Source of the DNA: Phenylobacterium haematophilum
GTDB taxonomy: Bacteria; Pseudomonadota; Alphaproteobacteria; Caulobacterales; Caulobacteraceae
NCBI RefSeq assembly: GCF_014196295.1
Contig: NZ_JACIDK010000002.1
Coordinates: forward strand, 911,768-975,767
DNA: 64,000 nt
Direction: 5' to 3'
Shown here: in pieces, positions 25,682 to 52,694 of the stretch
How positions within the stretch are numbered: position 1 is the first letter of the stretch
How the letters are laid out: each line of letters begins with the position of its first letter
Notes under the pieces: model-generated
The model's input: only the letters and a program-made list of their open reading frames with translations
Told to the model about the DNA's origin: nothing
Database searches by the model: none
Translations under genes and position numbers: made by a program

Positions 25682-25800
25682 GCGTGGCCGCGTCGAGAGC
25701 TTAACCGACTGCTGTGGGCAGGATCGGCGTATGCGTTGCGCCGGCGTCGCGCGGCTAGCCTTCGCGGCCGGCGCTTGATAAACGGATCGCCCTCACGCAT

Positions 25801-25839
25801 GCGGGCGTGGTGAAACTGGTAGACGCGCCGGACTCAAAA
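25801..25839 (+). pseudogene. tRNA-Leu 5' half, broken at the anticodon loop
   Basis: GCGGGCGTGGTGAAACTGGT is followed by the D-arm and the 5' anticodon stem CCGGA with loop CTCAAAA. The next bases (GGCGATG) no longer pair. The first 39 bases match the intact tRNA-Leu at 33885 except for two positions, and an upstream element (GCTTGATAAA..., about 30 bp) is also shared. No 3' half follows, so this copy cannot make a tRNA. It is the probable integration site of the island. Confidence 0.8.
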
Positions 25840-26163: not shown

Positions 26164-27495
26164 ATGACGACGCGGACCCCATCGGCCGCGGCCGAGAGCC
26201 ACACGATCATGGACGGGCGCGTGCACGTCTATCGGCGGCCCAACACCCGCTACTGGCAGTGCTCGGTGTTCCTGGGCGGCCGCAATCATCGCGTCACGAC
26301 CCGGCAAGACAACATTGTGCTCGCGCTGGAGTTCGCACGGGACTGGTCGCTCGATCGGTTCGCTGAGGATCGCGTCCGACGGCGCGGCGGGCAGGTCGTG
26401 GAGGCTGCTGACGCGGCGCCTGCGCTTGCCGAACCCGATCGCCGGACCGCCCATGTGCGTCGGCGCGCTGGTGTTCGGACCTTCCGAGAGGCGGCCAGCG
26501 CCTTCGTTTCGGAATACGAGATCATGACGCTCGGCGAGCGGAACGCCGAGCACGTTGCCTCGAAGTCCAGGCACCTGGACCTCTACCTGCTTCCGTTCTT
26601 CGGCGATTGCGGCCTGGACGAGGTGACCGCCGGCCGCATCCAGGAATACAGGGTCCATCGCCTCAAGCCGCCAGCCGGCCCTGAGGGGCGCGCTCGCGCG
26701 CCCAAGGGCCGTAAGCGCGTCTTCAAGAGGCCGGCGCGCAGCACCCTGCACAAGGAACTGGTGACGCTTCGCCAGGTGCTGAAGAGCGCCAATCGAAAGG
26801 GCTGGATCTCGGCCCTGCCGGACATGTCGGCGCCCTACAAGGCCTCAGGCAAGGTCTCGCACCGCGCCTGGTTTTCGCCCGAGGAGTACAAACGTCTCTA
26901 CGAGGCGACGCGCGAACGCGCCAGGAACCCGAAGAACGAGCGCTGGCGCGGCGAGTGCGAGCAATTCCACGACTACGTGCTTTTCATGGTCAACACCGGG
27001 CTGCGGCCCGATGAGGCCTGCCGCCTGGAGTTTCGCGACGTCCAGGTCGTGGTGGATGACAACACCGGCGAGCGCATCCTCGAGATCGAGGTGCGCGGCA
27101 AGCGCGGCGTCGGTTTCTGCAAGAGCATGCCGGGCGCGGTGCTGCCGTTCCAGCGGGTGAAGAAGCGCAAAGACGGCAAGCCGACCGACCTAGTGTTCGG
27201 GAAGGTGCAGCGCGAGCTACTGAACGCCGTCCTTCACGAGCTCGCCCTGAAGACCGATCGCGACGGCAATCCGCGCACGGCCTACAGTCTGCGCCACACC
27301 TACATCTGCCTGCGGCTGATGGAGGGCGCCGACATCTACCAGATCGCCAAGAACTGCCGGACGAGCGTGGAGATGATCGAGAAGTTCTACGCAACCCACA
27401 TCAAGAACACCCTTGATGCAGCGGCGATCAATGTGCGGAAGAAACCCAAACCGCGGAAGGGACCTTCCGCGGCCAGGGCGCTGGCGAACGCCTAA
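26164..27495 (+). CDS. Tyrosine-recombinase integrase
   Basis: A 443-aa site-specific recombinase with an N-terminal AP2/SAM-like arm and a C-terminal catalytic domain. The first Arg is in NTGLRPDEACRLEF, the HxxR box equivalent is AYSLRHTYICLRL, and the nucleophile Tyr is in MIEKFYATH. GGAGG precedes the ATG. It reads away from the broken tRNA-Leu, the usual arrangement for tRNA-integrating islands. Confidence 0.9.
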   Translation: MTTRTPSAAAESHTIMDGRVHVYRRPNTRYWQCSVFLGGRNHRVTTRQDNIVLALEFARDWSLDRFAEDRVRRRGGQVVEAADAAPALAEPDRRTAHVRRRAGVRTFREAASAFVSEYEIMTLGERNAEHVASKSRHLDLYLLPFFGDCGLDEVTAGRIQEYRVHRLKPPAGPEGRARAPKGRKRVFKRPARSTLHKELVTLRQVLKSANRKGWISALPDMSAPYKASGKVSHRAWFSPEEYKRLYEATRERARNPKNERWRGECEQFHDYVLFMVNTGLRPDEACRLEFRDVQVVVDDNTGERILEIEVRGKRGVGFCKSMPGAVLPFQRVKKRKDGKPTDLVFGKVQRELLNAVLHELALKTDRDGNPRTAYSLRHTYICLRLMEGADIYQIAKNCRTSVEMIEKFYATHIKNTLDAAAINVRKKPKPRKGPSAARALANA

Positions 27496-36813: not shown

Positions 36814-36844
36814 GGCTGCGAGGCGCGCCCTGCGCCTCGCAGCC
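36814..36844 (+). promoter_or_regulatory. 13-bp hairpin in the ParB-like leader
   Basis: GGCTGCGAGGCGC pairs perfectly with GCGCCTCGCAGCC around a five-base loop, ending 21 bases before the start codon and just upstream of AAGGAGG. It could be an attenuator, a protein-binding leader, or a transcription stop for upstream reading. Confidence 0.55.
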
Positions 36845-36865
36845 CAACCCCAAAAGGAGGTCGTC

Positions 36866-38812
36866 ATGACCACGAACGGCGAGATCGTCACTGGGACCGA
36901 GATCGAAATCCCCCTCAACAAGCTCAAGAAGTCGCCGCGCAACGCGCGCAAGGTTCCGCACAGCGACGCAGCCATCGAAGCGCTGGCGGCGAGCATCGGC
37001 GCCAAGAAGCTCCTTCAGAAGCCGGTGGTGGAGCCCGAACGCGACGACGCCGGTGGCCTCACCGGGTTCTGGCTCGTGACCATCGGGGAGGGGCGGCGGC
37101 TGGCGCTGCGGATGCTGGCCGCGCGGGGTCAAATCAAGAAGGCGCATTTGGTCCCGTGCGTGATCGATACGGAGTTCGATCCGCAAGAGATCAGCCTAGA
37201 CGAAAACGTCACACGCTCGGCCATGCATCCAGCCGACCAGTTCGACGCGTTCCGCGATCTAAACGAACGGCTCGGCTGGGGCGCCGAGGAGATCGGGGGG
37301 CGGTTCGGGGTGTCGGCCCACGTTGTTCGCCAACGCCTGCGGCTCGCCACAGTCAGTCCCAGGCTGATGGGCGTCTATCGCGAAGGCGGCCTGACCCTCG
37401 ATCAGCTCATGGCGTTCGCCGTGAGCGAAGATCACGAGCGCCAGGAACAGGTCTATGAGGCTCTATCCTACAACCGTTCGGCCAGCTTCATCCGGCAGGC
37501 GATGACGGAAGCCAAGGTGCGGGCCGAGGACCGGCGCGCGGTCTTTGTCGGCGTCGAGGCCTATGCCGAGGCAGGCGGCATGGTGCTCCGCGACCTCTTC
37601 ACCGAGGACGGCGGCGGCTGGCTGGAGGACGTGGCGCTGCTCGACCGGCTGGTGGCCGAGAAGCTGGCCGCGCAGGCCCAGGCGCTACGGGATGCGGAAG
37701 GTTGGAAATGGGCCGAGGCGCATCTCGACTACCCTTCCGGCCACGGCCTCGCGCGTGTCTATCCGGTTCAGATCGAGCGCGGCGCCGACGATACCGAGAA
37801 GATCGCCGCGATTAGCGCTGAGTACGACGCGCTCACCGAGCAGTGGGCGGCGGTGGAGGACCTGCCGCAGGAGGTCGAGGCGCGGCTCGCCGAGATCGAC
37901 GCCGAGCTGGACGCCTTCGGTGATGGCTATGCCTACCTCCCGGGCGACGTGGCGCGCGGCGGGGTGTTCGTCGTACTGGCCTGGGATGGATCGGTCCGGA
38001 TCGAGCGCGGCTTCATCCGTCCCGAGGACATGGCCCCCGAGCCCGAAGTCGAGGCTGGGGAGGACGCCGTGTCGCCAGAGCGCGAGGGCGACGGCGGCGC
38101 CCAGGCGGAGGACGATGAGGACGGCGGCGCTCCGCTCTCCGACCGGCTGGTCGCCGAGCTGACGGCCTATCGGAGCGCCAGCCTGCGCGACGCCTTGGCC
38201 GAAAGCCCCGAGACGGCCTTGCTCTGCGTGGTGCACGCCCTGGTGCTGCACACCTTCTGCGGCGCAGGTACGGCCAGCTGCCTCGACATCCGAAGTGCGT
38301 CCCGCGCGCTGGCCAGCGAGGTGCAGGGCGTCGAGGACAGCCCCGCCGGACGCCGTATCAGCGAGCGGCATGACGCCTGGGCGCGGCAGGTTCCCGATCA
38401 GCCAGCCCTCGTCTGGGCCTTCGTGACCGACCTCGACACCGACAGCCGCATGGCGCTCCTGGCCCACTGCGTGGGCCTCTCCCTCGACGCCGTGCAGGGT
38501 TGGCAGCGCCGTAGCTTGGCGCTGGCCCATGCGGATGCTCTGGCGGGACGGCTGGCGCTCGACATGCGCGGCGACTGGCAGGCCGACGCCCGCAGCTATC
38601 TCGGGCGCGTGACCAAGGCGCGGATACTCGACGCCGTGGCAGAGGCCGTGGGCGCCGAAGCCGCTGAGCGCCTTGCGGGCCTCAAGAAGGCGCAGATGGT
38701 GGAGGCGGCCGAAGGCTTGCTGGCAGGGACCGGTTGGCTGCCTCGCCACTTGCGCACCGAGGACGCCGCCGCCCACGACGGGCCAGACCAGGAGGCTGCG
38801 ATAGCGGCCTAG
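36866..38812 (+). CDS. ParB/RepB-family partition-like protein
   Basis: A 648-aa protein. The N-terminal ParB domain is IPLNKLKKSPRNARKVPHSD, then GFWLVTIGEGRRLALRML and DENVTRSAMHPADQFDAF. The HTH is GWGAEEIGGRFGVSAHVVRQR. A long C-terminal part, acidic linker then PETALLCVVHALVLHTF and onward, is typical of ParB-like proteins on conjugative elements and plasmids rather than chromosomal ParB. It probably controls element partition or transcription. AAAAGGAGG precedes the start. Confidence 0.85.
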   Translation: MTTNGEIVTGTEIEIPLNKLKKSPRNARKVPHSDAAIEALAASIGAKKLLQKPVVEPERDDAGGLTGFWLVTIGEGRRLALRMLAARGQIKKAHLVPCVIDTEFDPQEISLDENVTRSAMHPADQFDAFRDLNERLGWGAEEIGGRFGVSAHVVRQRLRLATVSPRLMGVYREGGLTLDQLMAFAVSEDHERQEQVYEALSYNRSASFIRQAMTEAKVRAEDRRAVFVGVEAYAEAGGMVLRDLFTEDGGGWLEDVALLDRLVAEKLAAQAQALRDAEGWKWAEAHLDYPSGHGLARVYPVQIERGADDTEKIAAISAEYDALTEQWAAVEDLPQEVEARLAEIDAELDAFGDGYAYLPGDVARGGVFVVLAWDGSVRIERGFIRPEDMAPEPEVEAGEDAVSPEREGDGGAQAEDDEDGGAPLSDRLVAELTAYRSASLRDALAESPETALLCVVHALVLHTFCGAGTASCLDIRSASRALASEVQGVEDSPAGRRISERHDAWARQVPDQPALVWAFVTDLDTDSRMALLAHCVGLSLDAVQGWQRRSLALAHADALAGRLALDMRGDWQADARSYLGRVTKARILDAVAEAVGAEAAERLAGLKKAQMVEAAEGLLAGTGWLPRHLRTEDAAAHDGPDQEAAIAA

Positions 38813-39113
38813 AGTCCGGATCGTCTTGCTTGGGCCGCGCATTCCCCGCCGCTGCGCGGCCCTCCTTCTTCCAGGCGGCGCCGGACTGTCGCTCAGGAGC
38901 GGGCGTTCGCGCCTTGCCGGTTTTCCCGCCGATCCGCGCCGCATGTCGATGGGGTGAGGCTCAACGCGCTGCAACCAAGCCGCCGTGAGCCGGGCCAGGG
39001 CCTCGGTGCTCAAGGGCTATCTCCACGTTCCCCTCCGCGCGCGCCCAGCGCGGCCTGCGATGGCCCGATCTGGCCGGAGGAAATGCGGCTGCGCCGCCGG
39101 CCGTCCTGGCGCA
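38813..39113. other. Noncoding stretch after ParB-like gene
   Basis: Very GC-rich, with open frames on several strands but no codon-like or family signal. No gene supported. Confidence 0.4.
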
Positions 39114-39190
39114 ACGGCGCTGGCGAGTTTTCTTCCCCTGCCGGCTTCGCCGCCATTCCTCGCGAGACAAGAAAATCTCGCCAGCGCCGT
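39114..39190. repeat. Long inverted repeat before DUF736 gene
   Basis: The left arm (39114-39134) ends CTGGCGAGTTTTCTT. The right arm (39169-39190) begins AAGAAAATCTCGCCAG and continues CGCCGT. The arms are complementary over about 21 bp with one bulged T, around a 34-bp loop. It could be a terminator-like structure, a protein-binding site or part of an origin. It lies 116 bp before the DUF736 start. Confidence 0.6.
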
Positions 39191-39305
39191 CCTCCGCTCG
39201 CGCTGCGGGCCCTGCGGGCTGCGCGGCCGTCCGCCTCCGGACCTGCCGATCGCCATCGAGGTCGCGATGGGCGCGGCCCGAGAGAAGCAGACAGGAGACT
39301 TCCCC

Positions 39306-39617
39306 ATGGCCACCATCGGCACCTTCACCCAGCACGAAGACGGCTCGATCAGCGGCGCCATCAAGACCCTCACCCTCAACGTCAAGGCGGCGCAGTTCCG
39401 ACCGGCGGAGAAGGAAAACGACAAGGCCCCCGACTTCCGCATCTTCGCAGGCCAGACCGAGTTCGGCGCCGCCTGGAAGAAGGTTTCCCGCGAGAACCGC
39501 GAGTACCTCTCGGTCAAGTTGGACGATCCGAGCTTCGCCGCCCCGATCTACGCCAGTCTGGTCGACGCCGACGAGGGCTACAGCCTGATCTGGTCGCGCA
39601 GCCGCGCCGCCGACTGA
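39306..39617 (+). CDS. DUF736-family protein
   Basis: A 103-aa protein. [40 protein letters not shown] and [18 protein letters not shown] are the DUF736 core, a small beta-rich family found almost only on alphaproteobacterial plasmids and conjugative elements. AGGAG precedes the ATG. Function unknown. Confidence 0.9.
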
Positions 39618-39681
39618 CCCCGCCAGCGCCCCGCTTCGGCGGGGCGCCGCTCCCCAACAAGACAATCTTGAGGAGGCCGCC

Positions 39682-40584
39682 ATGGCGCGCCCCAACGAGA
39701 CCGCTCGCCCGGACCTCTACGCCCGGGTCACAGCCAAGATCATCGCTGACCTCGAACACGGGGTCCGACCCTGGACCAAGCCCTGGTCCGCCGAACATCT
39801 CGCCGGCAAGATCAGCCGCCCGCTGCGCCACAACGGCCAGCCTTATAGCGGCATCAACGTCCTGCTGCTCTGGGCCGAGGCGACGGCCAGCGGCTTTTCG
39901 GCTCCGATCTGGATGACGTTTCGCCAGGCCCTAGAATTGGGCGCCCACGTCCGCAAAGGCGAGAGCGGCGCAACGGTGGTCTACGCCAACCGCATCACCC
40001 GCACCGAAGCTGGCGATGGCGGCGAGGACGTCGAACGTCAATTCCCGTTCCTGAAGGCCTACACCGTCTTCAACGTCGAACAGATCGAGGGACTGCCCGC
40101 GCACTACCGTGCTCTGGCTGCGCCGGTTCTGGACCCTGCCCAGCGGATCGCTCACGCCGACGCCTTCTTTGCAGCGACTGGCGCCGTCGTTCGTCACGGT
40201 GGCGACCAAGCCTACTACGCGATGGGACCAGACCATGTGCAGGTCCCGCCGTTCGAGTGCTTCGAAGACCCGGAGAGCTACTATGCGACCCTGGCGCACG
40301 AGTGCACCCACTGGACGCGGCATCCGACCCGGCTCGACCGCGACTTCGGGCGCAAGCGCTGGGGCGATGACGGCTATGCCCGCGAAGAGCTCGTCGCCGA
40401 ACTCGGCGCGGCGTTCCTCTGCGCCGACCTTGGCCTCGAGCTTTCAGCTCGCGAGGACCATGCCGCCTATCTCGCCAGCTGGCTGGACGTGCTGAAGGGC
40501 GACAAGCGCTTCATCTTCACCGCCGCCGCCCATGCCCAGAAGGCCTGCGACTTCCTGCACGGGCTGCAGCCGCGAGCAGACTAG
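39682..40584 (+). CDS. ardC: ArdC-like antirestriction/zincin protein
   Basis: A 300-aa protein with an N-terminal ssDNA-binding ArdC domain (HGVRPWTKPW, SGINVLLLWAEA, TVVYANRITR). The C-terminal zincin domain has HECTH at 206-210 in YATLAHECTHWTRHPTRLDR, with the third ligand in the EELVAELGAAFLCADLG helix. Such proteins travel with conjugative DNA and protect it in the recipient. AGGAGG precedes the start. Confidence 0.88.
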   Translation: MARPNETARPDLYARVTAKIIADLEHGVRPWTKPWSAEHLAGKISRPLRHNGQPYSGINVLLLWAEATASGFSAPIWMTFRQALELGAHVRKGESGATVVYANRITRTEAGDGGEDVERQFPFLKAYTVFNVEQIEGLPAHYRALAAPVLDPAQRIAHADAFFAATGAVVRHGGDQAYYAMGPDHVQVPPFECFEDPESYYATLAHECTHWTRHPTRLDRDFGRKRWGDDGYAREELVAELGAAFLCADLGLELSAREDHAAYLASWLDVLKGDKRFIFTAAAHAQKACDFLHGLQPRAD

Positions 40585-40627
40585 CGACGGTCGGAGCGTG
40601 CGGACCCCTCCGCACGCTCCGCACCGC

Positions 40628-41269
40628 CTAACCGCGTGCGGCCGTCTCGGCCGCCGCTTGCGCCCTGGCCTCGGCGAGCAGGCGTTCGCGGTCGGTCATG
40701 GCGAGGTCGCAGGCCGCGCCAAGATCGGAGGTCTTCGCGCAGTACCAGGCGCGCAGCTGGGCCAGGTCGTCATCCCAGGCGAGGGTCTCCAGGAACCCAA
40801 CGGCGCTCTGGTGCAATCGGCCGACGTTTCGGTCGTTGGCGGCCAGGATGCGATCCTCATGCGGCGTCAGCTTGGTCAACAGATGGCCTTGCGGGTACTG
40901 GCTGCGGCTGGCCGCGAGGTAGAGCTGGAAGAGCGCGCCCTTGATCGAGGTCGCGCGGCGATGGCCGGCGGTCTCTTCCAGGCCCCGCTGCCGCTCGATC
41001 AAGGCTTGATGCAGCTCGTCCGCCGACGGGCCAGCTTCGAGCGCGTCGAGAGCCGCCACGAGTTCGACGTCGCAATCTGCGCCTTCGTGCAGCCAGCGAC
41101 GGGTCCGGAGAATTTGAGCCGCCTCGACCGCCATCTGCTCGACCTCGCACGCGACGGCGAGCGCTTGGCGTTGGGCTGGCTTGCCAGGCGCCGGACGACG
41201 CCAGCGCTGGCGGACGGCGGGCGTCGTGGGCGCTGAGTGAGCTGCGTGATGATCGACGGCGATGGTCAT
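40628..41269 (-). CDS. Hypothetical conjugation-locus protein
   Basis: A 213-aa helix-rich protein without a known domain. The start MTIAVDHHAAHS at 41269 follows AGGAGAGG; the longer frame to 41938 reads antisense through mobC. It lies between ArdC and the candidate oriT on the opposite strand. Confidence 0.65.
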   Translation of the reverse strand: MTIAVDHHAAHSAPTTPAVRQRWRRPAPGKPAQRQALAVACEVEQMAVEAAQILRTRRWLHEGADCDVELVAALDALEAGPSADELHQALIERQRGLEETAGHRRATSIKGALFQLYLAASRSQYPQGHLLTKLTPHEDRILAANDRNVGRLHQSAVGFLETLAWDDDLAQLRAWYCAKTSDLGAACDLAMTDRERLLAEARAQAAAETAARG

Positions 41270-41408
41270 GGTGGGAGTCCTCTCCTGAAGAGCCGCGTGC
41301 GGTTGCGGCGTTCGGGCGGCTTGCTCCGCCTGTCGCGAAGACTCCGTGAATTGGGGCGAACCCTCTGCACCCGGCTGGGGCGCCCGGTTGGGCGGGCGGG
41401 GGGGGGGA

Positions 41409-41438
41409 GGTGCGATGCGTAGGCTTACGCGTCGCGCC
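41409..41438. other. Candidate origin of transfer (oriT)
   Basis: GGTGCGATGCGTA (41409-41421) and TACGCGTCGCGCC (41426-41438) form an imperfect 13-bp hairpin with a 4-base loop. On the minus strand the hairpin is followed by CACCTCCCC, reminiscent of the C-rich nick region of MobQ/Ti-type oriT. It lies just upstream of mobC and the relaxase and next to a run of ten G. This is inference from position and shape. Confidence 0.45.
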
Positions 41439-41467
41439 TGCCGAGGGGAGGGGGCAGGGTAAGAGCC

Positions 41468-42040
41468 GTGGTCGAGGGCAGGATAGCCTTGCCGGCGGCG
41501 GTGTCTTACGCGAGGCGCAACGTGGCGATCTTCAACGTCCGACTGCCAGACGATCTCGCTGATCGGTTCGACGAGGCGGCCGCCTCGCACGGCGGTCGCT
41601 CGGTGGTGCTGCGCCGCCTGATCCATGAGGCCGCCGGGGCTTCGCAGGCCGGGGTCCAATTGCTCGAACGCGGTCGTCCGGCCAAGCTGACGGTGCGCCT
41701 GGCCGATCCCGACCTGGCGGCGCTTACCGCCGCAGCGGCGGAACTTGGCCTTACGCCGAATGCCTGGGCCGCCGCCCTGATCCGCCGGCGGCTCTCGAAT
41801 CGTCCAGCTTTCAGCCGAGAGGGCGAGCGCGGGCTGATGGCCATCCAGACCGAGCTGCGCCGGATCGGCGTGAACCTCAACCAGATGGCCAGAGCCCTGA
41901 ACACCGAGGTGATGGAGGGGCGGGTGCTGGACCTGCAACTCACCGAGGTCAGAGCTTTCCGCGACGAGCTGCGGGGGCGGCTTTCCGACCTCCGCGCCGC
42001 GCTGGCCGGCAACCTCGATTACTGGGAGGCGGCGTGGTGA
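41468..42040 (+). CDS. MobC-like relaxosome accessory protein
   Basis: A 190-aa protein. An N-terminal ribbon-like segment (VAIFNVRLPDDLADRFDEAA) is followed by a second one, and then the MobC signature EVELRRIGVNLNQMARALN in the form LRRIGVNLNQMARAL. It helps the relaxase bind oriT. The start is uncertain: the GTG at 41468 or the GTG at 41522, which opens directly on the ribbon domain. Its stop overlaps the relaxase start. Confidence 0.75.
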   Translation: MVEGRIALPAAVSYARRNVAIFNVRLPDDLADRFDEAAASHGGRSVVLRRLIHEAAGASQAGVQLLERGRPAKLTVRLADPDLAALTAAAAELGLTPNAWAAALIRRRLSNRPAFSREGERGLMAIQTELRRIGVNLNQMARALNTEVMEGRVLDLQLTEVRAFRDELRGRLSDLRAALAGNLDYWEAAW

Positions 42041-43047
42041 GCGATTTTCGGACGGTCGAGGGGTTTGAAGACGTATGGCGGCCGGTGGCCCAGCCCCGAC
42101 GGACCCCCGCTCGGGTGCTGCGGCCAGGTCGCGACGATGCGCGCGCGCGGCTGTCGCGCATCGCGCGACGCGCGCCCGAAGTCATGGTCAAGGTCACCGG
42201 CCGAACCCGAAGCGGTCCGCACCTTAAGGCGCACCTGGACTACATCTCGCGCAACGGAATGCTGGACCTGGAGGACGACCAGGGAGCGCGGCTTCAGGGG
42301 CGCGATGACGTCGCCGATCTCGCGCGGGATTGGGCCGCTCAGGCCGAACTGGATCGGACCCGCCGGTCCAACTCTCCGATGAGCCATTCGATCATCCTCT
42401 CGATGCCGGCCGGCACTGACCCTCAAGCCTTGCGTCTGGCGGCGCGAGCTTTCGCCAGGGAGATTTTTGAGGACCGCTTCGAGTATGTCTTCGCGCTCCA
42501 CACGGACGCCGATCATCCGCACGTGCACCTGAGCGTCCGCAGCTCCGGTGTGCACGGCGAGCGGCTCAATCCGAAGAAGCCCGACCTGGAGCTCTGGCGC
42601 CAGGTCTTCGCCGAGGTGCTGCGCGAGCGTGGCGTCGAAGCCGAGGCGACACCGCGCCGCGCGCGCGGCGTGACGCGGCGGGCTGAACGCCAGGCGTTGC
42701 GACAGATGGCAGATCGTTCGCGCGCCGCGGCCGCTGGCCCGAGCCGCGCGCACCGCGAGGCGATGAAGGAGGCCGCCGCCGCCGCGTTCGGCGCTGACGC
42801 CGCCTTGCGCCCCTGGGAGAAGATGATCGGGCGCCAGCAGGCTCGTGTGCGTAGCCTCTATCTCCAGCAGGCCGCCTTGCTCGATCGCTCGCCGGACGCC
42901 GGTGATCGCGAGCTCGCCGCGCTCGTGCGGGCGTTCGTGAAGGAGATGCCGGCGCCCGATAGCCGGCGGTTGGCTCTGGCGCGTGCGTTAAGGGATCTCA
43001 GCGGTCGCTTGGAGCCGCAGCCTCAGGAGAAGGGGCGCGACCGGTAG
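42034..43047 (+). CDS. Relaxase/mobilisation nuclease
   Basis: A 337-aa VirD2/MobA-type relaxase. HTDADHPHVH at residues 156-165 is the metal-binding three-His motif. The catalytic Tyr is probably Tyr70 in LKAHLDYISRNG. The C-terminal part is basic and Ala-rich. It cuts one strand at oriT and leads it into the recipient. Overlap with mobC shows coupling. Confidence 0.85.
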   Translation: MVSDFRTVEGFEDVWRPVAQPRRTPARVLRPGRDDARARLSRIARRAPEVMVKVTGRTRSGPHLKAHLDYISRNGMLDLEDDQGARLQGRDDVADLARDWAAQAELDRTRRSNSPMSHSIILSMPAGTDPQALRLAARAFAREIFEDRFEYVFALHTDADHPHVHLSVRSSGVHGERLNPKKPDLELWRQVFAEVLRERGVEAEATPRRARGVTRRAERQALRQMADRSRAAAAGPSRAHREAMKEAAAAAFGADAALRPWEKMIGRQQARVRSLYLQQAALLDRSPDAGDRELAALVRAFVKEMPAPDSRRLALARALRDLSGRLEPQPQEKGRDR

Positions 43048-43325
43048 CTAGGCTGCTACGCGGCTCTCCGGCTGAAGCTCTGGCGGACGCTCTGCCCCCA
43101 AGGACGCGTCGCGTGGGGTCTTGGTCGCCTTGGCCTTGAGGGCGGGGCGTCTGGCCGCACTAAGCGGATGGAGATTCTGGCGGTCTCGTGGGAAGGGTGA
43201 TGATGTCGTCGAACTCGCGCCGACGATTGTGCTCCGCCATCGTGCCCCTCCCGCAGGGAGGATAGTGCGCGCGCCCGCTCGGCCACAATCGCCTTGCGGA
43301 TCGGTGGGGCGTTGCAGGTCATCCG
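43048..43325. other. No supported gene
   Basis: Between the relaxase and the LPD7 gene, which converge here. A minus-strand frame (43056-43322, 88 aa, Arg/His-rich) exists but has no recognisable family or ribosome site. Confidence 0.35.
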
Positions 43326-43991
43326 TTAGCGGTTTCGACTGCGCTCCTTGCCGACTGGGCGCTCGCCCTGATCGCGTCCAACCTTGGTCGGCGCCGGCTG
43401 GAACCGGGCGCCGCGTTCGAGCCAATAGGCGATCCGAGCCTTGGCCGCGTCGAGCGCGCGCTTCTGGACTAGCGGGTCGGCGACCCGGCTGCGAACGACC
43501 GTCTCGATCATCGCCAGGCGCAAGCGGCCGTCGGGATCCGCCTGCTGCGCGGGAGCCTTGAACTTTTCCTTGTCCTTGGTCGCCGTCGCACGGCCCGCCT
43601 TGGCTTCCAGCCGGCGTTCGAGAGCCTGGATCTCCCGTGCGCTCGGACGGTAGCCCTTCGCCTCCAGGCCGGCGGTCCGCATCGCCAGCCACGCCTCGCG
43701 CCGAAAGGAGGGATCACCTGAAATGACGACAGTCTCCCAGCCGCGGTGCTGCGCGATCTCCGCCATATGGCGCAGGGCGGCCGGATCGGCGCGAGCGGCG
43801 ATGAGGCGGCCGCCTCGGTCCCTGAACGCGGGCTGTTTGACGAGACGGTCGACGTAGAAGGCGATCCCGCCCCGTTCCGGTTCGGTCAGGTAGCGGCGAC
43901 GGAGAGCGTCGGGAACATCGCCTGCGGTTCGAGAGCCGCCCCGACTAACTGGTCGCAGAACGACGTCCGGGGAGGGTTGGTCATCAGCCAT
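43326..43991 (-). CDS. LPD7-domain protein of conjugative elements
   Basis: A 221-aa protein. RRRYLTEPERGGIAFYVDR, PAFRDRGGRLIAARADPAAL and WETVVISGDPSFRREAWLAM define the LPD7 (large polyvalent protein-associated) domain. The tail is basic. In other elements LPD7 follows a relaxase; here it is a stand-alone gene coupled (8-base overlap) to the coupling protein. Confidence 0.82.
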   Translation of the reverse strand: MADDQPSPDVVLRPVSRGGSRTAGDVPDALRRRYLTEPERGGIAFYVDRLVKQPAFRDRGGRLIAARADPAALRHMAEIAQHRGWETVVISGDPSFRREAWLAMRTAGLEAKGYRPSAREIQALERRLEAKAGRATATKDKEKFKAPAQQADPDGRLRLAMIETVVRSRVADPLVQKRALDAAKARIAYWLERGARFQPAPTKVGRDQGERPVGKERSRNR

Positions 43992-46641
43992 TTTTCGGGC
44001 TCCTGGACCGTTCCACGCGCTCTGCAGGGATGACGCCGGCGTCGATCACCATCTCCACCCAAGCGACAAGTTCTTCTTCACTCGCCTCGGCCCTGAGGGG
44101 GGGCATGCCGATAGTCAGGGGATCGGGCGCGGCGACAGAAGGGACAACTGGGTCGTCCGGCGATCGCTGGGCGGGCTCGACGAGAACGCTGTCGCGGGCC
44201 GACAACGAGACGACGGTTGGCGGCGGACTGACCCGCCGACGGAAGGCGCTTTCACGGAAGTATCGGAGCTTGTGCCCGCTGATCGGCGCCATGCCGGCGC
44301 GAAACACGAGGAGGCGATCACGCGGCATTTGCAGGAGTTCCTGAGGCAGCATCAGGGGGCGCGGCTGATCCGTCACGGTCATGGAGCGAGCGCCGGGCGA
44401 AAGCCCGACGGGACGGCTGCGGGCCCGCCCCTCGAAGGTGTAGGTCCCCAGCCGTTGCGACAGCTCACGGGCCACCTTGAGCTCCTTGGGTGCGAAGACG
44501 ATCTCGGCGCCGCAATTGGCCATGATGTCTTCGGCGAGCTCGGCGCCATAGACGAACCTCAGTTGGGCAGGGCTTTGCAGGACCGGGAGGAGGCGAAGGC
44601 CGTAGCCGGCGACGTACGAAAAGGCGTGAGCGAGGACGCTGGCCTGACCCAGGCGCGCGAATTCGTCGAGCAGGACCAGGACCGGAACCTGATGGCGGCC
44701 GCTGGAAGGTAGCGATCGGGTGTTGAGGTCGATCAGCTGCTGAAAGAGCAGCCCGTAGAGCGGGGCGACGCGATCGAGGTTGTCGGGCGAGGTGCAGAGG
44801 TAGACGGCCATCTGTCGGTCGCGGATTTGCCTCAGGTCGAAATCGCTGGTTTCGGTGGCCGCCACGACCCGGGGATTGAGCCAGAGGTTCAACCGCGCGG
44901 TGATGGTTTGTTTGATCCCCGCGAAGGTGTTTTCGGACGCCGAGCAGAAATCGGTCAGCGCCGCGGCGGCGCCGATTGATAGGCCGGGCGTTTCGGCGCG
45001 ACGCCGCCTCAGGCATTCCGAGAGGCGGTTGCGAAGGTCGGCCGCCGTCATGAGGCGATAGATTTCCCCGAACGTGAAGGGTGTGGCCGGGGTGGCCGCT
45101 ATCAGCGCGCCGACGCCGATGAAGCCTGTGCGCGCGGCCTCCGCCCAGAACGGGTCTGTGCGGTCGGGGGAGGGGAAGAGCATCACCGCGATACGCTGCA
45201 GCTCGTCGAGCACCGCGATCGGATCGTCCCTGTCGATGTGGCCAAGCGGATTGTAGCGGGCGGTCCGGCCTTCCGGATCCAGCGGATCGAAGCAGGTGAC
45301 CTGCTGGCCGTGGGCCGCACGGAATCCTGCCGACGCCGCCCAGTTTTCCCGCTTGATGTCGAGGACGACGAGGCTGCCGGACCAGCTCAGCAGGTTCGGT
45401 ATCACGACGCCGACGCCCTTGCCCGACCGTGTCGGGGCGTAGAGCAGCACGTGTTCAGGTCCCCCGAAAACCAGCAGGCGTCCGTTCTTCTTCCCCACGA
45501 TCACGCCATAGGTGTTCCTGAAGCCTTCGCGCCGGATATCGGCTTCCGTCGCAAGGCGGGCTGAGCCGTGCAACGGCGGCCGCGGTCGCTTCAACATGGC
45601 GCCTGCCAGGACGAACGCCGCGCCAGCGCCGCTTGCCGCGCCGATCATCAACCAAGCCCGCACCTGCGGGGCGCTCCGGTTGTCCCAGATCCATAGCCCC
45701 GAGGCCCACACGTCGGTCGAGCTGCTGAGGCCGCCCAGGCCCGCGAGGGTGACGAGGCACCCTAGCCAAACGCCGATCAGGCTTGATGCGCTCGCCAGCG
45801 CGACAAGCTGGAGCGGCCCTACGGCGTCAGAACCGTAGAGGGCCGATGCGCCGTCCACCAGCACCTCGACGCGTTGCACAGCCACCACGGGGATGGCGGA
45901 AAGGTCGGCGAAGTCGCCCTTCGAGCCTGTGCCGGCCATCCGCCTGCCGTTCACGAGCACCAATGTAGCGTCGGTTCCGAGGCCGCGGAGGTTCACGCCG
46001 GTGGAGGCGAAGCTATTGGTGCCGAGAGGATCTGCGCCGGTCAGCAAGGTGGTCGGTGAGCCGCCACCGCCGCCGAAATTCTGCGGAAGGCTGGTGACCG
46101 TTTCGTCGAGGGTGGCGAATCCGCGCTTGGCGATGGCCTCGCTGTCGAGCACCACGACTTGCGAGGGGCCATCTTTGACGCCACGCAGGTGGCTACCAGT
46201 AACGACGACCTCGGCGATTTCCTCGGAAGCGCGGTGCGCGGGGATGATGGCCTCCGCTGACTGGACCGCCCCTTGTGGCTCGACCGACGACAGTGGCGTC
46301 AGCCGGCCGGCGGGGTAGGGAGCCGCCTTTGCGCGCAAGACGATGGAGCCGCGCGTGGTTCGATCGATCACGAGGTCGCTTCCGGCGATCAGGCGCTTGA
46401 GGGCCTCATCGGCCGTCAGCCGCCCCTTTACCGCTGGCGCATTTCGGCCGCTGACCAGCGACGCCGAATAGAGAAGCTGGCGTCCGCTCTGGTGCGAATA
46501 GCTGACCAGGGCTTGGTCGAGCGGTCCGGCGCCGATATCGAAGGTAATTTGGGCCGGCGCGGCGAGCGCAGCCGCGGGGGCTGCACTGGCGCACAACGCG
46601 AGCAGAAACGCCTGGGGGGCGTACGACTTACTGAACGACAT
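43984..46641 (-). CDS. Chimera: TonB-receptor STN/plug fused to type IV coupling protein
   Basis: An 885-aa single frame. Residues 1-28 are a signal peptide. Residues 31-105 are an STN domain (ITFDIGAGPLDQALVSYSHQ). A TonB box (EIAEVVVTGSHL) follows at about 141-152, then a plug domain ending DGASALYGSDAV at 274. There the sequence changes abruptly, near base 45820, to a VirD4/TraG coupling protein: two hydrophobic helices (about 279-304 and 331-350), Walker A APTRSGKGVGVVIPNL (402), Walker B VPVLVLLDEFARLG (652). The receptor's 22-strand barrel is absent, as is the coupling protein's own start. Confidence 0.9.
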   Translation of the reverse strand: MSFSKSYAPQAFLLALCASAAPAAALAAPAQITFDIGAGPLDQALVSYSHQSGRQLLYSASLVSGRNAPAVKGRLTADEALKRLIAGSDLVIDRTTRGSIVLRAKAAPYPAGRLTPLSSVEPQGAVQSAEAIIPAHRASEEIAEVVVTGSHLRGVKDGPSQVVVLDSEAIAKRGFATLDETVTSLPQNFGGGGGSPTTLLTGADPLGTNSFASTGVNLRGLGTDATLVLVNGRRMAGTGSKGDFADLSAIPVVAVQRVEVLVDGASALYGSDAVGPLQLVALASASSLIGVWLGCLVTLAGLGGLSSSTDVWASGLWIWDNRSAPQVRAWLMIGAASGAGAAFVLAGAMLKRPRPPLHGSARLATEADIRREGFRNTYGVIVGKKNGRLLVFGGPEHVLLYAPTRSGKGVGVVIPNLLSWSGSLVVLDIKRENWAASAGFRAAHGQQVTCFDPLDPEGRTARYNPLGHIDRDDPIAVLDELQRIAVMLFPSPDRTDPFWAEAARTGFIGVGALIAATPATPFTFGEIYRLMTAADLRNRLSECLRRRRAETPGLSIGAAAALTDFCSASENTFAGIKQTITARLNLWLNPRVVAATETSDFDLRQIRDRQMAVYLCTSPDNLDRVAPLYGLLFQQLIDLNTRSLPSSGRHQVPVLVLLDEFARLGQASVLAHAFSYVAGYGLRLLPVLQSPAQLRFVYGAELAEDIMANCGAEIVFAPKELKVARELSQRLGTYTFEGRARSRPVGLSPGARSMTVTDQPRPLMLPQELLQMPRDRLLVFRAGMAPISGHKLRYFRESAFRRRVSPPPTVVSLSARDSVLVEPAQRSPDDPVVPSVAAPDPLTIGMPPLRAEASEEELVAWVEMVIDAGVIPAERVERSRSPKNG

Positions 46642-46767
46642 TCATTCCCTCACCACTTGTGCAGCGCGTTGTCAGACGGCGAGCCGGCCTGATCGCGATG
46701 CGTTGTGAGGGATAGACACGCGGGCCCCAGGCAAACCCTGACGACCACCGCAAAGAAAACTATGGCT

Positions 46768-47727
46768 TCACTCCATTCGGGCGCGAAGCAGCAGATCACC
46801 GTCCTGCTCGGTGCTGAGGTCCAGCGCATAGAGGTGCGCGACGGCCTCGGCCAGGGCGTCGATATCTCCCGTGTGGAAGACGCCGTTCACATGGGCAGCG
46901 GCGATGTCGTTCGACGCGGCGAGCCGGATCTTGCGACGGCTGTAGCGGTTGGCTTCCTCGACGGCCGCCGAGAGCGGCAGGTCCCGAAAGACAAGGCGGC
47001 CGCTCGTCCAGCTAGTGACGGCGCTGGTGTCGGCCAGCACGCGCGGCCCGTCCTGGCCGGTGGTGATCTGCTCTCCTGGCCTCAACGTCCAGGCTCGGGA
47101 CGAGCTGTCGTTCACGCGAACCTTGCCCTCGAGCAAGGTCACCCGGACCTTGTCCGCGTCGCGTCGAACGTCGAACTGTGTGCCGAGGGCTCGAACTTCG
47201 ACCTTGTCGACCGACACGACGAACGGACGCTTCGCATCGCGAGCAACCGCGAACATCGCTTGGCCGCGAGCGAGCTCGACCCGCCGTTCGTCGCCTCTCA
47301 TCCTCACGATCGCTCTGCTGTTGGTGTCGAGCGTCAAGGTCGAACCGTCGGCAAGGCGGACGGCGCGCTGCTCTCCGATCTCGGTTTGATAGACTGGGGC
47401 GTGCAGCAACCATCCGGCGGTCAGGGCGCCTGAGAGCGCGAGGACGGTCGCCGCGGCGAGCGCGAAGAGGCGGCGTGATGGTTCAGGCCGCCGAGTCGTC
47501 GTCCGATTGAGCGCCTCGTTAGCGGCGGCCCGGATGTCCGGATCTGAGTGCAGGGCGTCGCCACTGCGCCACAACGCCTCGACCTCAATGTAGGCCGCTT
47601 CGTTTGCGGGGTCGCTGCGCCATGCGAAGAAGGCGTCGAGGGTTTCGGCGCTGACGGAATGGGTGCGCAGCCTGGAGAACCAGGTCGCGGCGTCTTCCAG
47701 CACCTGTTCGTGTGAGTTGGCGGCCAT
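46768..47727 (-). CDS. FecR-family anti-sigma/sensor protein
   Basis: A 319-aa protein. The N-terminal cytosolic anti-sigma segment has WFSRLRTHSVSAETLDAFF. One membrane helix follows (LFALAAATVLALSGALTAG), then a periplasmic FecR domain (GEQRAVRLADGSTLTLDTNS; VEVRALGTQFDVRRD) and a C-terminal STN-like interaction part. In a complete system it relays a signal from the receptor's STN domain to the sigma factor. It is coupled to the sigma gene. ATG 47727 is used. Confidence 0.88.
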   Translation of the reverse strand: MAANSHEQVLEDAATWFSRLRTHSVSAETLDAFFAWRSDPANEAAYIEVEALWRSGDALHSDPDIRAAANEALNRTTTRRPEPSRRLFALAAATVLALSGALTAGWLLHAPVYQTEIGEQRAVRLADGSTLTLDTNSRAIVRMRGDERRVELARGQAMFAVARDAKRPFVVSVDKVEVRALGTQFDVRRDADKVRVTLLEGKVRVNDSSSRAWTLRPGEQITTGQDGPRVLADTSAVTSWTSGRLVFRDLPLSAAVEEANRYSRRKIRLAASNDIAAAHVNGVFHTGDIDALAEAVAHLYALDLSTEQDGDLLLRARME

Positions 47728-47732
47728 GACGA

Positions 47733-48263
47733 TTAGTCCGCGAGCTGTTGGGCGCAGAGAACCAGCGCCTTGGCGAGGCGCCACTCGACAGTCTTGATCG
47801 AGAGACCCAGGCGCTCGGCGATCTCGGCGTTGGTCATTCCGGTGAAGCGGCTGAGGATCATCACATCCCTGAAGATGACGGGGAGGGATAGAACGGCCTG
47901 CTTGAAGACAAGGGATTCAAGCTGACTGGGCGCATCGACGCCATCCACCGTCTCCCGTTCGAGCGTCTCGGCCAGCCGCCTGCGGGTCGCCTCGGCGCGG
48001 ATCTGATTGCGGGCGAGATTGGTGGCCACCCGCAACAGCAACGCCTGAGGATGGCGTACTTCCTGGGCGGCATGAAAGGGGGCCACGCGAATATATGTCT
48101 CTTGGACAACGTCTTCGCCATCGATGCCGTAGCGTCGGCGAAGCATCGCCTTCAGCCAGCCTGAATAGCGTCGATAGAGGACCGACAGGCTCTCGACGTT
48201 GCGTTGGTCGGTGTCCACGCCGTTTGGCGTCAGGACTTCGCCCGAGGTGGGTTGGTGGGCCAT
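47733..48263 (-). CDS. ECF sigma factor (FecI type)
   Basis: A 176-aa protein. Region 2 (LYRRYSGWLKAMLRRRYGID, DVVQETYIRVA) and region 4 (MTNAEIAERLGLSIKTVEWR) are clear. Partnered with FecR and, downstream, the receptor remnant: a cell-surface signalling set. ATG 48263 is chosen over the frame to 48422. A conserved 78-bp repeat lies just upstream. Confidence 0.9.
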   Translation of the reverse strand: MAHQPTSGEVLTPNGVDTDQRNVESLSVLYRRYSGWLKAMLRRRYGIDGEDVVQETYIRVAPFHAAQEVRHPQALLLRVATNLARNQIRAEATRRRLAETLERETVDGVDAPSQLESLVFKQAVLSLPVIFRDVMILSRFTGMTNAEIAERLGLSIKTVEWRLAKALVLCAQQLAD

Positions 48264-48301
48264 GGCCTCGCCTTGATGCTGCGAGGCGCACGCCCGGATG
48301 T

Positions 48302-48379
48302 CCGGGTGTTGAGAACATGCTTGACCATGCGCCGACGCCTTTAGCCGCCGCTGGCGACCTGGACATGCGCGTCGGCCAC
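48302..48379. repeat. Dispersed repeat, copy A
   Basis: CCGGGTGTTGAGAACATGCT, then GCGCCGACGCCTTT and TGGACATGCGCGTCGGCCAC. It matches copy B at 55804-55877 at most positions, with gaps in the middle. It lies upstream of the sigma gene, within a 313-bp gene-free stretch that otherwise holds nothing recognised. Confidence 0.6.
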
Positions 48380-48576
48380 GCCGGACAGAGGGCGTCGTGG
48401 ACTTCTCAAGCGAGGTTCTCACGCCTCGGCGCCGCGGCCGCGGCGCAACCCTGAGTCTAAGTCGCGAGGTTCACCGAACGCAAGAATCTAAAACGTCCGA
48501 GGCGCCCCGTCCTGCTGCGACGCATTCGGTGCGGAGCCGCATTCTAAGGCTCAGCTTCGCGGGGCGCGAGGGGGGC

Positions 48577-48882
48577 CTAATTCCTGAGGCGGTTGCGCAG
48601 TCTTCGGAGCTCGCGCTCGTCAAGGTCGTCCGGATAGGCGAGGCGGGTGCTCCACTGATGGTCGCAGCACTTCGGACAGGCGTGCTTCACCTGGCTCGCG
48701 ACGCGGGCGACAGGCGTCGTGAAGCCACCGTCGCCGCGCGCGTATAGCCGATCGATGACCCGCGCCACGTCATAGCCTTTGGACCAGCCGCACCGACCGC
48801 AGGCCAGCATCAGCCGGCAGCCGGGATACTTCTGCGCCTCCTCCAGCCGGGCGTCGCGAGCATGGGCGATCGGCAAAAGCAT
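48577..48882 (-). CDS. Zinc-ribbon-like hypothetical protein
   Basis: A 101-aa protein with two Cys pairs (LACGRCGWSK and HACPKCCDHQW), like a zinc ribbon. Last of a three-gene minus-strand cluster; its start overlaps the previous gene's stop. Function unknown. Confidence 0.62.
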   Translation of the reverse strand: MLLPIAHARDARLEEAQKYPGCRLMLACGRCGWSKGYDVARVIDRLYARGDGGFTTPVARVASQVKHACPKCCDHQWSTRLAYPDDLDERELRRLRNRLRN

Positions 48883-49094
48883 CAGCCGTGCGGCTTTCCA
48901 GAATAGAAGGCCGTGTCTCGCGTGAAATGGTAGGCGGCGGTTTCAAGCGCCTTCTGTGCCGCGGCCAGGATGAGGTAGTCGGTCCCGAACGGTCGGCACT
49001 TAGTCTGCAGGGCGATCAATGCGCGATGATATGGGCGCAAGGTCTCGAAGGCGGCCTTCGGATCGGTGACGCCGAGATATCGGATCTTGGTCAA
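48882..49094 (-). CDS. Hypothetical protein
   Basis: A 70-aa soluble helical protein (AFETLRPYHRALIALQTKCR; AAAQKALETAAYHFTRDTAF). It is in the same cluster, ten bases after the gene at 49104. No family recognised. Confidence 0.6.
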   Translation of the reverse strand: MTKIRYLGVTDPKAAFETLRPYHRALIALQTKCRPFGTDYLILAAAQKALETAAYHFTRDTAFYSGKPHG

Positions 49095-49103
49095 AATGGG
49101 CTC

Positions 49104-49397
49104 CTAGCGAAAAATGAAGAGGGCAGGGCTTGAGGCGGCCTTCGCCGGTCCTGCCCGGATTTCTAGCCGTGCGGCTCTGGAGCCGCAGATGCACCGAACG
49201 CGGGATGCGAGGGCTGTCAGCGGGAGCTGCTCCAGGTGCTGGTGCAGCCAAGGGCTCGGGTCGCAAACGGCGCTACGCCGGCACGGCGGCGACAAGCACA
49301 AAGCGACGATGTGTCGATCTCGCGCCAGCGCATCGCCGAGAGCCTGGCTGGCCGCCAGCTTCGTGCGTTCTTCTTGAAGAGTTGATCCGTCTGCCAT
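49104..49397 (-). CDS. Hypothetical protein
   Basis: A 97-aa protein with several Cys (SPPCRRSAVCDPSPWLHQHL, RVRCICGSRAARLEI), possibly metal-binding. MADGSTLQEERTKL at 49397 is the best start. First gene of the cluster. Similar short cysteine-containing proteins are common on alphaproteobacterial plasmids; the function is unknown. Confidence 0.58.
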   Translation of the reverse strand: MADGSTLQEERTKLAASQALGDALARDRHIVALCLSPPCRRSAVCDPSPWLHQHLEQLPLTALASRVRCICGSRAARLEIRAGPAKAASSPALFIFR

Positions 49398-49568
49398 GTC
49401 TGCGCTCCCGCGCGAACAAAAGCAGAACATTTGGCGCTTGGCGACTCCGTTCCGGCTGTGGCGGCGGCGCCCCACTCCCGCTCAGCGCGAGAACATCTGG
49501 CTGCAATCCCGTAGCCAGGCGGCGCGCAGCCGGGCTAAATCCGTGGCTTCACAACGGAAGGGGCCGCC

Positions 49569-50081
49569 ATGTCGCAAGGCGTCGTCAAATTCTTCAATGC
49601 CGCGAAGGGCTTTGGTTTCATCAGTCCGTCTGACGGGACGCCTGATATTTTCGTGCATATCTCCGCCCTGCACGACAGCGGCATCGAAGGCTTGAACGAA
49701 GGCGACGAAGTGAGCTTCGAGGTCGAGCGTGATCGGCGCTCTGGCAAGTCATCGGCCGTGGCGCTCTCAGTTCTGGCCTATGCGCCGGCGGGAGGTGGTC
49801 GTGGCCGCGGCGGCGGTTCCGGCCGCTCTGCGTCGCCGCCGCCGCGGGGGGTGAGCCGCGAGACCCTCGGTTCGGGCGCTGGTGTCGTGAAGTGGTTCAA
49901 CCCGGCGAAGGGCTTTGGCTTCATTCAGCCGAACGACGGCGGCACCGACATCTTTGTGCACATCTCCGCCGTCGAGCGTGCAGGCCTGCGTGGCCTTGAT
50001 GATGGTCAGCAGGTCAGCTTCGACCTGGAGCAGGACCGGCGTAGCGGTAAGCTGGCGGCGACGAACCTGAGGGTGGAGTAG
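49569..50081 (+). CDS. Double cold-shock-domain protein
   Basis: A 170-aa protein. Two OB-fold cold-shock domains: [20 protein letters not shown] with DIFVHISAL, and [20 protein letters not shown] with DIFVHISAV, each with RNP1 and RNP2. A Gly/Arg linker separates them. Tandem CSDs are the usual form in Caulobacterales. It is an RNA chaperone-type protein. Confidence 0.93.
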
Positions 50082-50138
50082 GGCGCTGCCTCAGCAAGGC
50101 ATCACGGTGGCGGCCCCTTGCAAGGCAGGGCCCTCACC

Positions 50139-51275
50139 ATGAGCACTCCAGTGGCCCCACCTCGGCCGTCCCTCCGCATTATCCATCTCTCGGGGGGGCT
50201 TCGCGCGTTCGACATTGGCGATGCCGACGTTCGGGTTGGGCCCGACTACGGCTTGCATCTCCTGCAGTTCCCGACACAGCCCTATGCGCGGACCTACGCT
50301 GTCCTACAGGACATTGGGCTTGAGATACTCGGGGTGGACTTCATCAGTCATAGAAGTGCGCTGGTCGCTGGCGAACCTCCAGACTTCCAGGTCTTTTGGC
50401 CCCAGGCCGGTTTCGCGGAAATGGCGTGCGAGCGAGCGTGGTCGCAGGTGCGCCACGTGCCAGAGCAACGAGGGCCGGAGATCGTCGACATAGCGGGGCG
50501 ATTTGCGACCTATCTTCGCCTGCTCAACCTACGGGTCCGCGAACTCAGCGATGCCTATCGAAATTGCCTCCGGTCGAAGCTCATTGACTTGGATGGTTCA
50601 TACAAACGACCGCAAGACCGAACGCTCTTCGCGAATGGCTACCTCGTCCACATGGAGGCGGCGATCCATGCATTTCTCGCCGATGCCGCAGGGCTGCGCG
50701 ATCTGATCGCGGAAGCCATTTGGCGTCTCGTGCTAAAGGAGGCCTCGCAAGACGTCACGACACTGGCTTCATTGCTCCGTCGAACCCGTTCGCGCTCAAA
50801 TGCGGCTCCGCTGCTGACTGAAATCCATGCCGCGGGCGCCGACGGCGGCTGGCTCAGGGCCCTGACGGACCTTCGCAACGCCATTACCCATGTCGCGCCG
50901 CTCGCAAATTCGCACGAGCTACACTCGACGCAAGTACGGTTGCGGCCGCTACGAGGCGGCTCGGCGCCAATCGTCCACTATCCTCTGACAACAGCCGAGG
51001 GCGGACTGAGGCCACGCCCGTCGCCGGTTGATTTTGAGCAAGAAGCGATCCTCAAGGAGCGGCTCGAGGAGTATCGCGGCTTCGTCGACACAAGCGGCGA
51101 CGCCTTGACCTATGCGCACGGTACTCTCCACGCCCTAGTCGCGCTCGCAAACAAAGTGCGCGAGACGGCCGGTCTCAAGCATCAAATGCTTACGATCACC
51201 GATGCGGACATCATTGGTCCGGTCCGTTTCTATGGCCGAGGTCACGATAGCTCGCCGGGCGATCCTCCAGAATAG
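50139..51275 (+). CDS. Hypothetical protein with HEPN-like motif
   Basis: A 378-aa soluble protein. No family is certain. Around residue 250 the sequence WLRALTDLRNAITHVAP carries an R-x4-H pattern of HEPN ribonuclease-type domains, and the middle is helical. The N-terminal part is beta-rich. ATG 50139 is used rather than the TTG at 50118. The IS3 element lies 101 bp after its stop. Confidence 0.5.
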   Translation: MSTPVAPPRPSLRIIHLSGGLRAFDIGDADVRVGPDYGLHLLQFPTQPYARTYAVLQDIGLEILGVDFISHRSALVAGEPPDFQVFWPQAGFAEMACERAWSQVRHVPEQRGPEIVDIAGRFATYLRLLNLRVRELSDAYRNCLRSKLIDLDGSYKRPQDRTLFANGYLVHMEAAIHAFLADAAGLRDLIAEAIWRLVLKEASQDVTTLASLLRRTRSRSNAAPLLTEIHAAGADGGWLRALTDLRNAITHVAPLANSHELHSTQVRLRPLRGGSAPIVHYPLTTAEGGLRPRPSPVDFEQEAILKERLEEYRGFVDTSGDALTYAHGTLHALVALANKVRETAGLKHQMLTITDADIIGPVRFYGRGHDSSPGDPPE

Positions 51276-51436
51276 GGTCGCGGACGTCCGCACGCATCTG
51301 CGCAACCCCTCGTGGCAGTAATCCCTTGCTACGCAAGGCAGTCCTTCAAATTTGCGCTGCGAACTTCCGGGTGGTTGACCTGCCCCTGAGTTTTTCCTCC
51401 ACGCGGAGCTAGAGTCCGGCCCTTGAGAGGACGGAC

Positions 51437-51703
51437 ATGAAGCGAGCGAGATTCACGGAAGAGCAGATCATCGGGATCCTTCGGGAGAACGAGGCCGGAG
51501 CGAAGGCGGGGGAGCTGGCCCGCAAGCACGGCGTGTCGGAAGGCACGATCTACGCCTGGAAGGCCAAGTTCGGCGGGATGAGCGTGTCGGAGGCCCAGCG
51601 GTTGAAGGCGCTGGAAGACGAGAACCGGCGGCTCAAGTCGCTGCTGGCCGACGCCATGTTGGACAAGGCCGCGCTGAACGAGCTTCTCTCAAAAAAATGG
51701 TAG
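51437..51703 (+). CDS. IS3 transposase OrfA
   Basis: An 88-aa HTH protein (FTEEQIIGILRENEAGAKAG; ARKHGVSEGTIYAWKAKFGG) followed by a leucine-zipper-like segment. It ends with a run of seven A (CTCAAAAAAATGG), a typical -1 frameshift site to make OrfAB. Confidence 0.9.
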   Translation: MKRARFTEEQIIGILRENEAGAKAGELARKHGVSEGTIYAWKAKFGGMSVSEAQRLKALEDENRRLKSLLADAMLDKAALNELLSKKW

Positions 51704-52623: not shown

Positions 52624-52694
52624 AAGATCAGGGGCAGGTCATGGTGCTTGCCCTAGTTGCTTCGCCCAGCCCAGCTTGTTTAGCTTCGGCCGCG

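Follow-up and report, generated by a model that had tools for sequence, protein, structure and literature searches.

The 64,000-nt stretch of Phenylobacterium haematophilum DNA analysed here (hereafter, the window) contains a reading frame in which the exported front end of a TonB receptor runs directly into a VirD4/TraG conjugation coupling protein. Does this frame encode a new kind of protein, or is it the product of a rearrangement that joined two genes with separate functions? To answer this question, we combined domain searches and a comparison with a closely related intact element with searches for the same join in other genomes and plasmids.

Composition of the fused frame

A preliminary description of the locus, made from the sequence alone, had proposed a single open frame of 885 codons without giving its strand. 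We found this frame on the minus strand (Table 1), with its parts in the proposed order of signal peptide, STN domain, plug and coupling ATPase. A plain hydropathy scan identified a signal-peptide-like stretch at residues 11-29, and Pfam models matched an STN domain at residues 55-105 (36.3 bits, cut-off 28.4), a Plug domain at residues 156-275 (57.4 bits, cut-off 23.9), the coupling ATPase domain T4SS-DNA_transf (PF02534) at residues 365-808 (314.1 bits, cut-off 20.1) and TraG-D_C at residues 653-774 (89.1 bits, cut-off 22). The plug was present, while no Pfam match to a TonB-receptor beta-barrel was obtained within the frame. The switch from receptor to coupling protein, previously placed near base 45820, was located at window positions 45818-45821, corresponding to residue 275. 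Regarding the coupling part, the description of a full ATPase held true, although the retained portion is more than an ATPase: the protein is present from residue 5 of 615, so that it lacks only its first four residues and keeps both N-terminal membrane-helix-like stretches, detected by the same scan at residues 279-297 and 331-349 of the fused protein.

Table 1. Position of the fused ORF, its parts and neighbouring features in the window
Feature	Position	Strand	Evidence or remark
Fused ORF, 885 aa	43984..46641	-	ATG start, single open frame
Receptor part, residues 1-275 (signal peptide, STN, plug)	45817..46641	-	100% to residues 1-275 of the G036 receptor (1013 aa)
Coupling-protein part, residues 275-885	43984..45819	-	100% to residues 5-615 of the G036 coupling protein
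Deletion junction CCTA	45818..45821		Both ends of the 18,372-bp block in G036 carry CCTA
FecR-type anti-sigma factor	46768..47784	-	PF04773, 83.7 bits; 100% to G036; upstream of fused ORF
FecI-type ECF sigma factor	47733..48422	-	Profile match and G036 comparison; upstream of fused ORF
LPD7-domain gene	43326..43991	-	PF18821, 67.3 bits; 100% to G036; 8-bp overlap with end of fused ORF
MobA/VirD2-type relaxase	42034..43047	+	PF03432, 61.5 bits; MobP1 model 101 bits, below cut-off of 200
NikA/MobC-like mobilisation protein	41468..42040	+	PF21983 and PF05713
Candidate integrase, just inside left end of shared element	26164..27495	+	Phage_integrase E 9.9e-5, 22.6 bits, below cut-off of 27.1; position
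tRNA-Leu-like remnant	25755..25839	+	83.5% to window 33841-33923, a segment overlapping the tRNA-Leu gene

Comparison with an intact element in a second Phenylobacterium species

The comparison with an intact coupling gene that the preliminary description had called for was provided by a MAG of a second Phenylobacterium species (G036, rated 70% complete), which carries the same element. In G036, complete genes for the receptor (1013 aa) and for the coupling protein (615 aa) lie apart from each other, at a distance of 18 kb. When the fused protein was used as query, its residues 273-885 (100% identity) and 1-280 (98%) matched two places on one G036 contig, on the same strand and with ∼18 kb between them. 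At the DNA level, contig G036:C25 aligned to window 36147-45826 with 99.98% identity, zero mismatches and one gap at the junction, and to window 45818-51375 with 100% identity, ∼18 kb of G036 being absent between the two alignments. The 9-bp overlap that BLAST gave at the junction was rejected, as exact extension of both arms reduced it to 4 bp. This script check showed that the window corresponds exactly to two G036 flanks joined at CCTA, minus 18,372 bp, and that the fused protein corresponds to the G036 receptor through residue 275 followed by the G036 coupling protein from residue 5, with 100% identity. An overlap of at least 4 bp was computed to be expected in 2.6% of random joins of these regions and thus hints at short-homology joining without proving it.

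Compared with a VirD4/TraG coupling protein, the fused ORF shares the complete ATPase and both N-terminal helix stretches, and its neighbours, an LPD7 gene and a relaxase, are those of the intact G036 copy. In contrast, 275 residues of an exported receptor replace the start codon and the first four residues, and the VirB-type genes that adjoin the intact copy have been deleted. Similarly, it shares with the TonB receptor of isopeptidase-type lasso clusters the signal peptide, the STN domain, the plug and the upstream FecI/FecR genes, whereas its locus lacks the beta-barrel and the remaining cluster. There is no difference in kind with respect to deletion-born chimeric ORFs, in which removal of the intervening DNA, with microhomology at its ends, places two unrelated genes of the same strand in one frame; the present case is large, recent and has left both halves undamaged. 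Judging from these sequences, we regard the fused ORF as almost certainly the scar of one 18,372-bp deletion within a mobile element, and most likely a non-functional accident.

The G036 block absent from the window matched models for VirB11, VirB10, VirB9, VirB8, VirB5, VirB4 and VirB1, together with one gene that we take to be VirB6-like, its model being named only ‘type IV secretion system protein’. These eight are the VirB-type genes that the survey covered, and only VirB11 and VirB4 reached a curated NCBIfam cut-off. The block also contains a helix-turn-helix gene, a GntR-family gene, a lasso B2 gene (61.2 bits, NCBIfam cut-off 33), an Asn-synthase-type cyclase gene, an S9 peptidase gene whose best resemblance is to lasso isopeptidases, and the receptor barrel. 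The cyclase (56.7 against 300 bits) and the isopeptidase-like protein (81.6 against 400 bits) scored under the NCBIfam cut-offs and over the Pfam domain cut-offs. By the domains found, an isopeptidase-type lasso gene set is present: GntR, B2, Asn-synthase-like cyclase, S9 isopeptidase, TonB receptor and FecI/FecR. Published clusters of this type are described with the same gene set, with a GntR regulator preceding the precursor and with the TonB transporter and the sigma/anti-sigma pair beyond the isopeptidase (PMC9266682); the G036 receptor likewise lies beside the lasso-type genes. Using the eight VirB-type and the lasso-type proteins of the block as probes, none was matched in the window.

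One alternative, also raised in the preliminary description, is that the join is an assembly or chimeric-read artefact and that the intact 18-kb block is really in the genome but was skipped by the assembler. The shortness of the shared sequence speaks for it: only 4 bp, a length reached by 2.6% of random joins and shorter than the cut-off of at least 8 bp deduced for trustworthy deletion junctions from single reads in a study of spontaneous rearrangements in Salmonella (PMC3411829). Nevertheless, the skipped 18 kb was found on no contig of an assembly rated 100% complete. A query comprising 17,800 bases of the 18,372-bp block recovered just four stretches from the own genome, of 40-134 bp and at 70-85% identity. 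Collapse of a repeat is also unlikely, as window 45400-46300 contains no direct repeat of at least 12 bp; one 12-bp inverted pair lies away from the junction. Taken together, we consider an artefact very unlikely. We also considered whether the lost half of the receptor survives elsewhere in the own genome; there are 55 barrel-family matches, yet the missing DNA itself gave only the scraps mentioned above.

The age of the deletion can be bounded by comparing the element with its surroundings. The window and G036 are nearly identical from about 25.8 kb rightwards, whereas the chromosome to the left of the element is only 90-91% identical. Mismatches preceding the shared region end at 25799, the following ones are at 29499 and 32751, and two more, at 36149 and 36151, are located at an alignment end. 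Rightwards, 30,486 bp aligned to G036 at 99.99%, with two differences, up to the end of the window's contig, which stops within the shared region, so that the right end of the element was not found. On the left, the near-identical region begins within a tRNA-Leu-like sequence (about 25.80 kb); 8 kb further in, at 33885-33969, lies an intact tRNA-Leu (CAA). The element is probably integrated at a tRNA-Leu gene, with the remnant as a putative attachment site. Between the window and G036, the element shows hardly any change beyond the deletion, an IS insertion and a small discrepancy near 36.15 kb. Because the element is near-identical while the chromosome to its left is only 90-91% identical, its sharing between the two species must be recent, and the deletion is no older. 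Thus, the fusion is most likely very young.

The IS insertion, presumably IS3-like, occupies window ∼51376-52641, carries two transposase-like ORFs (51437-51703 and 51697-52623) and is absent from G036, where the aligned flanks overlap by 4 bp, as expected for a target duplication. At 36147-36156, beside an IS110-type transposase fragment (35657-36133), the window has ∼0.28 kb less than G036.

Distribution of the join and predicted fate of its product

We then searched other genomes for the same join, as the preliminary description had suggested. Among 101 genomes of the genus, including the own one (nine best candidates scored per genome), the own genome gave the sole listed match spanning both halves. 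The same was true among the matches listed for 390 genomes of the family (two best candidates scored per genome). Since a join present at full length would be expected as the top match of any genome carrying it, its absence among the matches listed stays informative. Scanning another genome collection, in which the own genome may not be included, with the fused protein yielded 14 loci, each matching one half. As for plasmids, none of the 5,000 best-scoring records of a larger number matching at the protein level had a place covering 80% of the fused protein, and none of the 490 records matched in a DNA search covered 80% of the query. No description of a receptor-coupling protein fusion was found among open-licence papers, from which its absence from print does not follow.

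To establish the direction of the change, five outgroup regions, chosen since both genes share one contig, were laid out with the G036 proteins as probes. The receptor and the coupling gene occupied opposite ends of the same block in four of them (G033, G018, G043 and G008); in the fifth (G017) the lasso part was displaced, and the two genes were separate in all five. Other genomes (G003, G013, G026, G032 and G040, among others) carry both genes on one contig with a different order or spacing, indicating that the block order is common but not universal. In addition, the receptor of SCN 69-14 (L036) is 96% identical over residues 146-1013 and continues unbroken past the position of the join. 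The separate genes in the five chosen outgroup regions, together with this unbroken receptor, indicate that the fused state of the own genome is derived. The preliminary description had reasoned that the join would be in doubt if the halves were always separate genes in related elements and the join were missing from the raw data; the halves are indeed separate in the related elements examined, which is also the state from which the deletion would have started.

These data suggest the following course of events. The ancestral element would have carried fecI, fecR, the TonB receptor and the isopeptidase-like gene on one strand and the lasso-type biosynthesis genes on the other, next to a run of VirB-type genes ending in VirB11 and then the coupling protein. 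A single 18,372-bp deletion, arising by short-homology or illegitimate joining, would have linked receptor codon 275 to coupling-protein codon 5. It would have cost the element its recognised VirB genes and its lasso-type cluster, the receptor its barrel and the coupling protein its start codon. Transcription would now proceed from the receptor promoter, probably in a FecI-dependent manner given the fecI and fecR genes upstream. The signal-peptide-like stretch would export the STN and plug domains, and the two helices would be threaded the wrong way round, so that the ATPase would not end up in the cytoplasm, or else the protein would be broken down. The topology problem noted in the preliminary description, an ATPase on the periplasmic side, holds for the topology predicted here. 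Nor would correct synthesis of the coupling protein help, as its own VirB channel would be missing: no useful product would result, and the element would no longer be able to transfer itself.

The cognate VirB channel genes expected of a working conjugation system are missing from the element. The own genome contains six VirB4-like matches, the four listed being 30-32% identical, and five other coupling proteins with 29-36% identity. Because the cognate secretion genes are gone, the fusion is most likely non-functional. Among the options that had been offered for resolving the topology, a dead fusion is now the best supported. The frame preserved through 885 codons had been used as an argument for the reality of the fusion. 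The open frame is, however, no sign of selection: neither half has yet diverged from G036 (100% identity), which means that the join is too young to have decayed, and a random join of two same-strand genes preserves the frame one time in three.

Another of these options was that the ORF is fused on paper only, with an internal restart still yielding a near-normal coupling protein. Although nothing beyond residue 4 of the coupling protein is missing, its native start codon has been deleted. The next in-frame starts (GTG 311, GTG 327, TTG 331 and ATG 332) lie past the first helix stretch, TTG 331 and ATG 332 fall inside the second one, and no clear ribosome-binding site was seen by eye in the 20 bases preceding them. 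Such a restart is therefore highly improbable. Even less probable is a selected fusion, in which the receptor front end would regulate or position the coupling ATPase and the join would have been retained as useful. While the frame is open, both halves are undamaged and the distant VirB4-like genes and coupling proteins elsewhere in the genome are possible partners, the join has no counterpart among the matches listed in the 390 family genomes, neither half has any substitution with respect to G036, so that selection has had no time to leave a trace, the cognate VirB genes are lost and the predicted topology would place the ATPase on the wrong side. We give just as little credence to a stable membrane-inserted fusion whose lasso-receptor front would tether the coupling ATPase and acquire a new function with another conjugation system of the cell.

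Lasso-type clusters beside conjugation genes

The block lost from the window is conserved elsewhere. It comprises fecI, fecR, the TonB receptor and the S9 isopeptidase-like gene, with the opposite strand carrying the lasso-type cyclase, B2 and GntR genes, and continues with the helix-turn-helix gene, the VirB1 to VirB11 run and the coupling-protein gene (loci L029, at G036:C25:60000-79999; L045-L050, L053 and L054; L037 and L043). A lasso-type cluster lies beside a VirB/D4 operon in G036, G033, G018, G043 and G008, and beside VirB1 in the two Brevundimonas loci (L037 and L043). The Caulobacter segnis locus L044 contains the lasso-type cluster, with no VirB match within its 20.7 kb. In a rough, uncontrolled count, 23 of the 47 lasso-cyclase loci of the genus were at most 30 kb from a VirB4 or coupling-protein gene; for the other 24 such a gene was farther away, or absent from the contig among the matches used.

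Further lasso-type cyclases have a coupling protein of a distant type (29-32% identical) at 2.7-2.8 kb and a VirB4-like gene at 6.7-9.0 kb (G000:C10:41492-52987, with similar spacing in G031:C3, G012:C3, G027:C95 and G021:C7). The own genome's further lasso-type cyclase is 43% identical to that of G036. The predicted lasso-type clusters adjoin two kinds of conjugation system.

In the G036 block, a 51-codon ORF (L029:13297-13452, plus strand) located between the GntR and B2 genes resembles by eye a lasso precursor: a Gly with Thr two positions ahead of it could open the core, whose ninth residue would be acidic, in line with the features by which such precursors are recognised. No work joining lasso peptide, type IV secretion system and isopeptidase was found among open-licence papers, which does not imply its absence from print; a paper retrieved in a search on lasso peptides concerns lanthipeptides (PMC12715929). 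The role of isopeptidase-type lasso peptides is described as still enigmatic (PMC9266682).

Overall, the fused ORF is most likely explained by a recent deletion of an ordinary kind and does not represent a new type of protein. The case shows that one deletion can leave behind a striking domain fusion whose origin only a near-identical relative reveals, and this calls for caution when genomes are mined for fused ORFs. The intact block is a more interesting object than the fused ORF itself, as in several Caulobacteraceae it brings a lasso-type cluster next to a conjugation operon, and a link of isopeptidase-type lasso peptides to mobile elements would be testable.
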